From: Deltaproteobacteria bacterium
GTDB lineage: Bacteria; Myxococcota; Myxococcia; Myxococcales; SZAS-1
Length of the DNA: 64,000 bases
Assembly: GCA_018266075.1 (NCBI GenBank)
Contig: JAFEBB010000002.1
Coordinates: 1 to 64,000, forward strand
Direction: 5' to 3'
Below are positions 27,896 to 35,937 of this stretch, piece by piece (within the stretch, counting starts at the first letter, position 1; each line of letters opens with the position of its first letter). The position numbers were made by a program, and so were the translations under genes. Under the pieces are notes generated by a model that saw nothing but the letters and a program-made list of their open reading frames with translations, was not told the origin of the DNA and searched no databases.

Positions 27896-29458
27896 ATGCC
27901 CAACCAGCCCAAGCTCACGCCCATCGAGGTGCCGGCGGTGAACGCGCTGGCCCGCGCGGAGCGCGTGATCCGCTGGAACAAGTCGGTGGGCGAGCCGGTC
28001 ATCGCCAACGAGACGCTGGTGGTGGTGGAGGTGGACGGGCGCGAGGTGGAGATCCCCGCGCCGGCCTCGGGCGTGCTGGTGCGCATCGACAAGCCCTTCG
28101 GCGAGCGCGTGGACGCGGGCGAGGTGATCGGCCAGGTGGAGGTGAGCAGCCACGCCACGCGGCTCATTCCGGCTGCGAACGCCGCGGTGGCGATCGCGGA
28201 TCCGCCCACCATCCCGCCGACCATCGTCCACGCGCCCGGCGCGCGCGCACCCTCGGGCGCGACGCCGGCTGCGCATCGACCGCACTCGGCCGACGCGCCG
28301 CAGGGCCGGGCCATGAGCCGCAAGCTCGCTGGCTTCGGGACGACGATCTTCACGGAGATGACGGCCCTCGCGAACCAGCACCAGGCCATCAACCTGGCGC
28401 AGGGCTTCCCCGACTTCGACGGGCCGGACTTCGTGAAGAACGCGGCCATCGAAGCGGTGAAGGCGGGCCACGGCCAGTACGCGCCGATGTCGGGATTGCG
28501 CGCGCTGCACGAGGCGCTCGCGGCCAAGTACGAGCGGTTCTACGGGCTGCGCTACACGCCGGGCGAAGAGATCACCATCACCGCCGGCGCCACCGAGGCC
28601 ATCTTCGTCGCGCTCCAGGGCCTCTGCGACGTGGGCGACGAGGTCGTCCTCTTCGAGCCGTACTACGACTCGTACCGCGCCAGCGTGTGCATGGCCGGCG
28701 CGACGCCACGGGTGGTCACGCTGCGCACGCCGGATTGGCACTTCGATCCCGACGAGCTCCGCCGCGCCTTCGGGCCGCGCACGCGCGCCATCGTCCTCAA
28801 CTCGCCCCACAACCCCACGGGAAAGGTGTTCGCGCGGGAGGAGCTCGAGCTCATCAGCGCGCTCTGCGTGGAGCACGACGTGGTGTGTATCTCCGACGAG
28901 GTCTACGAGCACCTCGTGTACGACGGAAAGCACCTCCCGGTCGCGACCATCCCCGGGATGCGCGAGCGCACCATCACCATCTCCAGCATCGGCAAGAGCT
29001 ACTCGCTCACCGGCTGGAAGATCGGCTGGGCCTGCGCGCCGCGGATCCTGACGCAGGCCATTCGCGCCGCGCACCAGTTCGTGACCTTCGCCGTGGCCAC
29101 GCCGCTGCAGCACGGCGCGGTGGCGGCCATCGAGGCGCCCGACGCGTACTACACGCAGCTCCTGAGCGAGTACCGCGCGCGCCGCGACCAGCTCGCCGCT
29201 GGCTTGAGCAAGGCGGGCCTGGGCGTGCGCATGCCGCAGGGCAGCTACTTCATCTGCGCGGACATCCGCGTGCTCGGGCACTTCGACGACGTGCGCTTCT
29301 GCAAGGACCTCATCGAGAAGGTCGGCGTGGCCGCGATCCCGCCGAGCGTGTTCTACGAGCGCAGCAACGAGGGCAAGACCTACGCGCGCTTCGCCTTCTG
29401 CAAGAAGGAAGCGACGCTGCGCGCGGCGGTGGAGCGCCTCGGGAAGCTGGGCTCATAA
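27896..29458 (+). CDS. Fusion: lipoyl-like domain lacking the lysine + class I/II PLP aminotransferase
   Basis: A 520-residue protein. Residues 1-84 have the fold signature of a biotinyl/lipoyl domain (RVIRWNKSVGEPVIANETLV, VEIPAPASGVLVRIDKPFGE, VDAGEVIGQVEV). At the position of the modified lysine of the E2 motif E-T-D-K-V-T-V, the sequence reads E-V-D-G48-R-E-V, so it cannot be lipoylated there. A 55-residue Pro/Ala linker leads to a full fold-type I aminotransferase from M140: INLAQGFPDFDGPDFV, ITAGATEAIFVALQGL, LNSPHNPTGKVFAREE, the PLP lysine K367 in SSIGKSYSLTGWKIGWA, and KTYARFAFCKKE at the end. The catalytic part is closest to YbdL/kynurenine-methionine aminotransferases. An internal ATG at 28313 could also start the enzyme alone. 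Confidence 0.9.
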   Translation: MPNQPKLTPIEVPAVNALARAERVIRWNKSVGEPVIANETLVVVEVDGREVEIPAPASGVLVRIDKPFGERVDAGEVIGQVEVSSHATRLIPAANAAVAIADPPTIPPTIVHAPGARAPSGATPAAHRPHSADAPQGRAMSRKLAGFGTTIFTEMTALANQHQAINLAQGFPDFDGPDFVKNAAIEAVKAGHGQYAPMSGLRALHEALAAKYERFYGLRYTPGEEITITAGATEAIFVALQGLCDVGDEVVLFEPYYDSYRASVCMAGATPRVVTLRTPDWHFDPDELRRAFGPRTRAIVLNSPHNPTGKVFAREELELISALCVEHDVVCISDEVYEHLVYDGKHLPVATIPGMRERTITISSIGKSYSLTGWKIGWACAPRILTQAIRAAHQFVTFAVATPLQHGAVAAIEAPDAYYTQLLSEYRARRDQLAAGLSKAGLGVRMPQGSYFICADIRVLGHFDDVRFCKDLIEKVGVAAIPPSVFYERSNEGKTYARFAFCKKEATLRAAVERLGKLGS

Positions 29459-31814: not shown

Positions 31815-34704
<2,890 letters not shown>

Positions 34705-34715
<11 letters not shown>

Positions 34716-35937
34716 GATCGTCGTGCCGCCGCTGGGCGAGAGCATCAGCGAAGCGGTCATCGGCAAGTGGAACAAGAAGGTCGGCGATGCGGTGAAGAAC
34801 GAGGAGTCGCTCGTTGTCCTCGAGACCGACAAGGTCACCGTCGAAGTGCCTGCGCCCAGCGCCGGCGTCATCACCGACATCAAGGTCAAGCAGGGTGACA
34901 GCGTCAAAGTGGGCGCGGTCATCGCCGTGATCGACGCGGCCGGTGCGGCCAAGGCCGCTGCGGCGGCTCCGGCTCCGGCTCCCGTCGCGGCGGCTCCGGC
35001 TCCTGTGGCTGCGACCGCGGCGGCGAGCGATGAGCGCGTGACGCCCGTCGCGCGTCGGCTCATCGAGGAGAAGGGCCTCGACCCGAGCAAGATCGCTGGC
35101 ACCGGCGCCGGCGGAAAGATCACCAAGGAAGACGTTCTCGCCTACGGCCAGAACGGCACCGCCATGCGCCTGCCCACGCCCACGCCTCCCGCACCGACGC
35201 CGACCGTCTCCATTCCGAGCGGGCCGCGCAAGAACGCCGACCGCGAGGAGCGCGTGCGCATGACGCCGCTGCGCAAGCGCGTGGCCCAGCGCCTCGTGGA
35301 AGCGCAGTCCACCGCCGCCATCCTCACCACCTTCAACGAGGTGGACATGGGGCCGGTGATGGAGCTCCGCAAGAAGTACCAGGAGAAGTTCACGGCCAAG
35401 CACGGCATCAAGCTGGGCTTCATGAGCTTCTTCATCCGCGCGTCGATCGAAGCGCTCAAGGCCTTCCCGGTGCTCAACGCGGAGATCGAAGGCGACGACG
35501 TCATCTACAAGCGCTTCTACGACATCGGCGTGGCCGTCTCCGGCTCGCGCGGTCTGGTGGTGCCCGTCGTTCGCGACGCCGACAAGCTGTCGCTCGCCGA
35601 CCTCGAAAAGAAGGTGGGCGAGCTGGGCACCAAGGCCCGCAACGACAAGCTCAGCCTCGACGACCTCCAGGGCGGTACCTTCAGCATCACCAACGGCGGC
35701 ATCTTCGGCTCGATGCTCTCCACGCCCATCATCAACCCGCCGCAGACGGGCATTTTGGGGATGCACAACATCGTCGAGCGCGCGGTGGTGAAGAGCGGCC
35801 AGATCGTGGCCACGCCGGTGATGTACGTGGCCCTGAGCTACGACCACCGCCTGGTCGACGGCAAGGAGGCGGTGAGCTTCCTCGTCCGCATCAAGGAGTG
35901 CATCGAGGATCCCGAGCGCATCTTGCTCGAGGTCTGA
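34705..35937 (+). CDS. sucB: Dihydrolipoyllysine succinyltransferase, E2 of 2-oxoglutarate dehydrogenase
   Basis: A 410-residue acyltransferase. GTG 34705 is chosen because GGAGG (34695-34699) lies five bases upstream. It has one lipoyl domain (about 1-75) with the modified lysine K43 in [15 protein letters not shown], an Ala/Pro hinge ([14 protein letters not shown]), a peripheral-subunit-binding domain (about 110-150; [20 protein letters not shown]), and the catalytic domain (about 185-410) ending in the active-site motif [20 protein letters not shown]. It is co-translated with sucA. A strong terminator follows, so sucAB form the unit. Confidence 0.97.

Follow-up and report, generated by a model that had tools for sequence, protein, structure and literature searches.

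A class I aminotransferase fused to a lipoyl-type domain that has glycine at the lipoyl-lysine position

What does a lipoyl-type domain do in front of an aminotransferase when the lysine that would carry lipoate is replaced by glycine? The question is raised by one gene in the 64,000-nucleotide stretch of a Myxococcota genome analysed here (the window; contig JAFEBB010000002.1, positions 1 to 64,000). Its open reading frame (27896-29458, plus strand) begins with ATG and encodes 520 amino acids, with the lipoyl-type domain and the aminotransferase in one frame. The features discussed below are as follows, with the basis for each in brackets.

27896..29458, plus strand: fusion gene, pseudo-lipoyl domain + linker + class I aminotransferase (single ORF, Pfam, codon-position GC)
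27923..28144, plus strand: lipoyl/biotinyl-fold domain, residues 10-83 (PF00364, AF2 model, Foldseek)
27938..27961, plus strand: beta1-beta2 surface loop, residues 15-22 (alignment; loop role from PMC6270654)
28031..28045, plus strand: lipoyl turn, residues 46-50, with G48 at the lysine site (alignment)
28148..28312, plus strand: Ala/Pro-rich linker, residues 85-139 (composition, 79% G+C; low pLDDT in the full-length model)
28313..29455, plus strand: aminotransferase domain, residues 140-520 (orthologue starts, alignment; PRK09082 above cut-off)
34693..35937, plus strand: sucB (E2o), with an intact, lysine-bearing lipoyl domain; comparison copy outside the fusion

A preliminary description of this DNA had assigned residues 1-84 to the lipoyl domain. 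The fold stands, but its extent is corrected to residues 10-79/83; after it come about 55 residues of linker, Ala/Pro-rich as in E2 proteins, and then the enzyme, from M140 onward. Codon-position composition follows the order GC3 > GC1 > GC2 throughout the frame, as is usual for a gene, with GC3 highest in the lipoyl-type domain (1.00), slightly lower in the aminotransferase (0.96), and lowest in the linker (0.87); the 56-base intergenic gap upstream has 55% G+C. All 84 third positions of the lipoyl-type domain are G or C, a GC3 of 1.0 that is seen in 0.6% of the 84-codon windows of neighbouring genes, and because of this saturation the domain resembles maintained coding sequence rather than decaying DNA. 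That an assembly or sequencing error joined two separate genes is very improbable: the arrangement is known from one genome, assembled into 166 contigs, but the locus lies well inside a 224-kb contig, the frame is continuous across the junction, and no stand-alone gene elsewhere encodes a close relative of the domain.

The domain itself reaches 46.5 bits with the Pfam profile Biotin_lipoyl (PF00364; cut-off 22.1; E = 3.4e-12) over residues 10-79 and also matches the NCBIfam profiles for the pyruvate dehydrogenase E2 (E = 3e-13) and SucB (E = 1e-11), and a PDB sequence search with it returned matches to lipoyl domains. It is 38% identical to the window's SucB over 100 columns, or 44% over 57 amino acids by BLASTP (E = 1e-12). 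An AlphaFold2 model of the domain, built on an alignment of two sequences only, has six strands, with pLDDT of 86-91 in ten-residue blocks across residues 21-80, and Foldseek ranks lipoyl domains of E2 proteins and biotin-carrier domains highest as matches to this model (1qjo, 3crk, 2evb). The lipoyl/biotinyl fold proposed earlier is thus upheld by a profile match above cut-off and by similarity of the predicted structure, and the structure prediction called for at that time gave a lipoyl-type barrel and no other outcome. In the full-length model, pLDDT falls below 50 at the lipoyl-type domain, so that the domain is not placed relative to the enzyme, and in a tree of lipoyl domains its branch (length 4.1) is too long for it to be placed. 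It is a diverged lipoyl domain uninterrupted by a stop, rather than a fresh insertion.

The divergence falls largely on the end of the domain that does the work in an E2 protein. In the alignment, E-T-D-K-V-T-V of the window's SucB stands exactly opposite E-V-D-G-R-E-V of the fusion, and each of 31 lipoyl domains aligned with it has lysine where the fusion has G48; these domains come from the same genome and phylum, are mostly SucB of one family, and are not independent. Because glycine replaces lysine in this D47-G48 turn, lipoate attachment at the usual site would be impossible, as the preliminary description held; on this alignment lipoylation there is excluded, and hence a swinging arm at that position as well. 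According to the NMR literature, recognition by E1 depends mainly on the beta1-beta2 loop and on residues to either side of the lipoyl-lysine, and further E1 contacts are spread over the whole domain (PMC6270654). The fusion has V-N-A-L-A-R-A-E in the loop (residues 15-22) where E2 domains have L-G-E-S-I-x-E-A, and V-D-G-R-E in the turn (residues 46-50) where they have T-D-K-V-T. Of the conserved positions in loop and turn, 11 of 12 are changed, against 4 of 23 in the scaffold, the latter class being the other 23 conserved positions with two at the extreme N-terminus left out; the associated P value (Fisher one-sided, P = 3e-5) is a guide only, since the classes were set post hoc and the sequences are related. 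In the AlphaFold2 model, two strands (40-46 and 49-54) still form the hairpin around D-G, a turn suited to a tight hairpin. Because these strands are kept, the scaffold looks maintained with its working end gone, and we infer that maintenance of the scaffold has gone together with loss of the carrier and E1-substrate functions.

The genome also encodes lipA and lysine-bearing E2s, and ordinary lipoyl domains would therefore be available to its dehydrogenases. A second divergent E2-type lipoyl domain was observed elsewhere in the same genome (locus L037, 1501-1716; genome G000, contig C8), with the turn E-T-E-K-G-A, the lysine present, and a low lipoyl domain profile score (53 bits).

Judged from profile matches and active-site residues, residues 140-520 form a class I aminotransferase that is complete and belongs to the YbdL/kynurenine-aminotransferase group. 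Pfam places Aminotran_1_2 (PF00155) at residues 164-515 (E = 2e-62; 212 bits against a cut-off of 19.7), and the NCBIfam profile PRK09082, 'methionine aminotransferase', is matched above its cut-off (438 against 420 bits), whereas PRK07777 is matched below its own (516 against 553). A structure search identified Rv0858c (2o0r), YbdL (1u08), and KAT I as the closest solved relatives, at about 39-48% identity. In a 21-sequence alignment, N306, D334, Y337, K367, and R498 are invariant, K367 being the PLP lysine; together with a frame that is coding throughout, this confirms the earlier claim of a one-frame fusion to a PLP enzyme whose active-site lysine is intact. A 111-sequence tree groups the enzyme with sequences from Myxococcota and Acidobacteriota MAGs (a 32-row group with SH-aLRT 97), and identity to these MAG enzymes (L070-L081, L199-L217) is mostly 61-68%, against at most 56% within its own order. 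This placement, apart from the enzymes of the order to which the genome belongs, could reflect lateral gain or differential loss. Two of the MAG records collected, L080 (CAMAXZ010000006.1) and L097 (CAMBEL010000067.1), are titled Klebsiella pneumoniae and Bifidobacterium breve; the aminotransferases they contain resemble those of uncultured environmental lineages, and the record titles look mislabelled.

Orthologues of the enzyme start at the position of M140, where the linker ends, and M140 (ATG 28313) is a possible internal start. This raises the alternative that the aminotransferase is made mainly from ATG 28313, with the fusion protein as a minor product. The orthologue starts are compatible with two such products, as is the lack of a clear Shine-Dalgarno sequence at either ATG 27896 or ATG 28313, with a weak CAGGG upstream of the latter. 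However, the coding signal is strong in both domain and linker, which share the enzyme's frame, and a linker of E2 type is sensible only within a fusion; we regard predominant internal initiation as improbable.

The preliminary description had called the combination of domains unexpected, and the same domain order was found in no relative searched. No fusion was detected among 60 relatives from the order, among 195 genomes from the phylum (queried with the lipoyl-type domain only), in the genomes that encode the 12 nearest aminotransferases, or in two further phyla sampled with 396 and 379 genomes (775 in total). Besides the window's own copy, the matches listed in the 195-genome search were at most 46% identical, and those aligned were ordinary, lysine-bearing domains. 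The best 80 aminotransferase matches in genome contigs have no lipoyl domain, and a lipoyl profile run over 169 collected aminotransferase loci and the window's own matched only the window's copy. Searches of viral contigs and plasmids likewise yielded no fusion; one record of the plasmid search spans 80% or more of the query, and none of the 13 plasmid matches to the domain by itself is annotated as an aminotransferase, several of them being without annotation. No report of a lipoyl-aminotransferase fusion was found in the open-access papers searched. The source genome is the sole member of its family in the genome collection searched, and the fusion is a new combination of known parts, a singleton in all data searched.

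As the fusion is present in only one of the genomes searched, the domain may be a neutral appendage, that is, an in-frame fusion that drifts without function in front of an enzyme that works without it. Such drift would be in keeping with a singleton that has no conserved relative showing selection, and with the loss of the lipoyl-specific residues. Nonetheless, scaffold positions, hairpin, and 100% GC3 have been retained in a domain only 38-44% identical to SucB, and this deeply diverged domain is free of stops and not freshly inserted, so that we consider a functionless appendage rather unlikely, although it is the likeliest of the alternatives weighed here.

A more specific function had been suggested earlier, namely that the domain could act as a pseudo-swinging arm that docks the enzyme to a dehydrogenase complex. 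Under this proposal, the pseudo-lipoyl domain would recruit the enzyme to a 2-oxo acid dehydrogenase complex, and the 2-oxo acid made or used by the aminotransferase would be channelled. Some observations point this way: the domain is E2/SucB-like; D47, which occupies a turn position reported to contact E3 (PMC6270654), is kept; and an aminotransferase-dehydrogenase metabolon is known in mammals, where BCATm binds the E1 of BCKDH (as cited in PMC8329528). In addition, sucA starts (31728) 2.3 kb downstream of the fusion gene, with an opposite-strand gene in between, and sucA lies tail-to-tail with the orthologous aminotransferase gene in four related genomes, all without the fusion, at spacings of about 30 to 120 bp (L074 6001-9968, L075 6001-9874), 0.9 kb (L242 3990-8782), and 2.9 kb (L246 710-7470). 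These four form one small subclade among the 169 relatives, beyond which no conserved gene neighbourhood was found; because proximity to sucA is limited to this subclade, none of whose members has the fusion, and because of the intervening opposite-strand gene, it carries little weight. The residues of the E1-recognition loop and turn are gone, moreover, and no peripheral subunit-binding domain follows the lipoyl-type domain. Since the recognition face of the domain is lost, the preliminary description overrated the likelihood of docking to E1; the changes at 11 of 12 recognition positions weaken the proposal, which received no direct support, and we consider it unlikely, though not impossible given the further contacts reported across the domain (PMC6270654). 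A repurposed docking or sensing module that uses a new face to place the enzyme at a 2-oxo acid dehydrogenase complex or at lipoyl-handling partners seems slightly less likely still. A role in oligomerisation or ligand binding, which the preliminary description also suggested, may still apply.

We favour a more modest reading, which we hold to be probable: an ordinary, active aminotransferase that carries a repurposed, unlipoylated lipoyl-fold appendage as a structural module or a contact module of another kind. Gene fusion would have put an E2-type lipoyl domain and a flexible Ala/Pro linker before an ordinary PLP-dependent aminotransferase of the YbdL/methionine-kynurenine group. The enzyme would form a normal fold-type-I dimer and exchange an amino group between an amino acid, possibly methionine, glutamine, or an aromatic one as in its group, and a 2-oxo acid. 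Two pseudo-lipoyl domains would be tethered to this dimer, never lipoylated and not substrates of E1, and the appendage may persist as a stable beta-barrel that provides structure or solubility or offers a surface for contacts. Its molecular role is probably modest. If the domain is functional, an unrelated enzyme can retain the lipoyl fold as a module without a carrier role, and the gene offers a compact test of physical coupling between an aminotransferase and a dehydrogenase complex in bacteria; if it is functionless, the gene is a further case of lineage-specific domain fusion.

Among known systems, the closest counterpart of the appendage is the lipoyl domain of E2o (SucB; PF00364; 1ghj, 1pmr, 1qjo), with which it has in common the predicted flattened beta-barrel, core residues, the E-x-D turn, the V-E-I-P-A-P-A-S-G strand-turn, and an Ala/Pro linker after the domain. 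Unlike E2o, the fusion has glycine in place of the lysine and lacks the L-G-E-S-I-x-E-A loop, and an aminotransferase takes the place of the subunit-binding and catalytic E2 domains. The enzyme is alike throughout to YbdL (1u08), Rv0858c (2o0r), and kynurenine aminotransferase I, with active-site residues intact, including the PLP lysine, whereas the N-terminal 139 residues of the fusion are missing in every relative examined. The BCATm-BCKDH metabolon, whose BCATm is of fold type IV and lacks a lipoyl domain, would be a functional analogue if the domain of the fusion docks the enzyme; the fusion would in that case constitute a genetically encoded bacterial aminotransferase-dehydrogenase metabolon.
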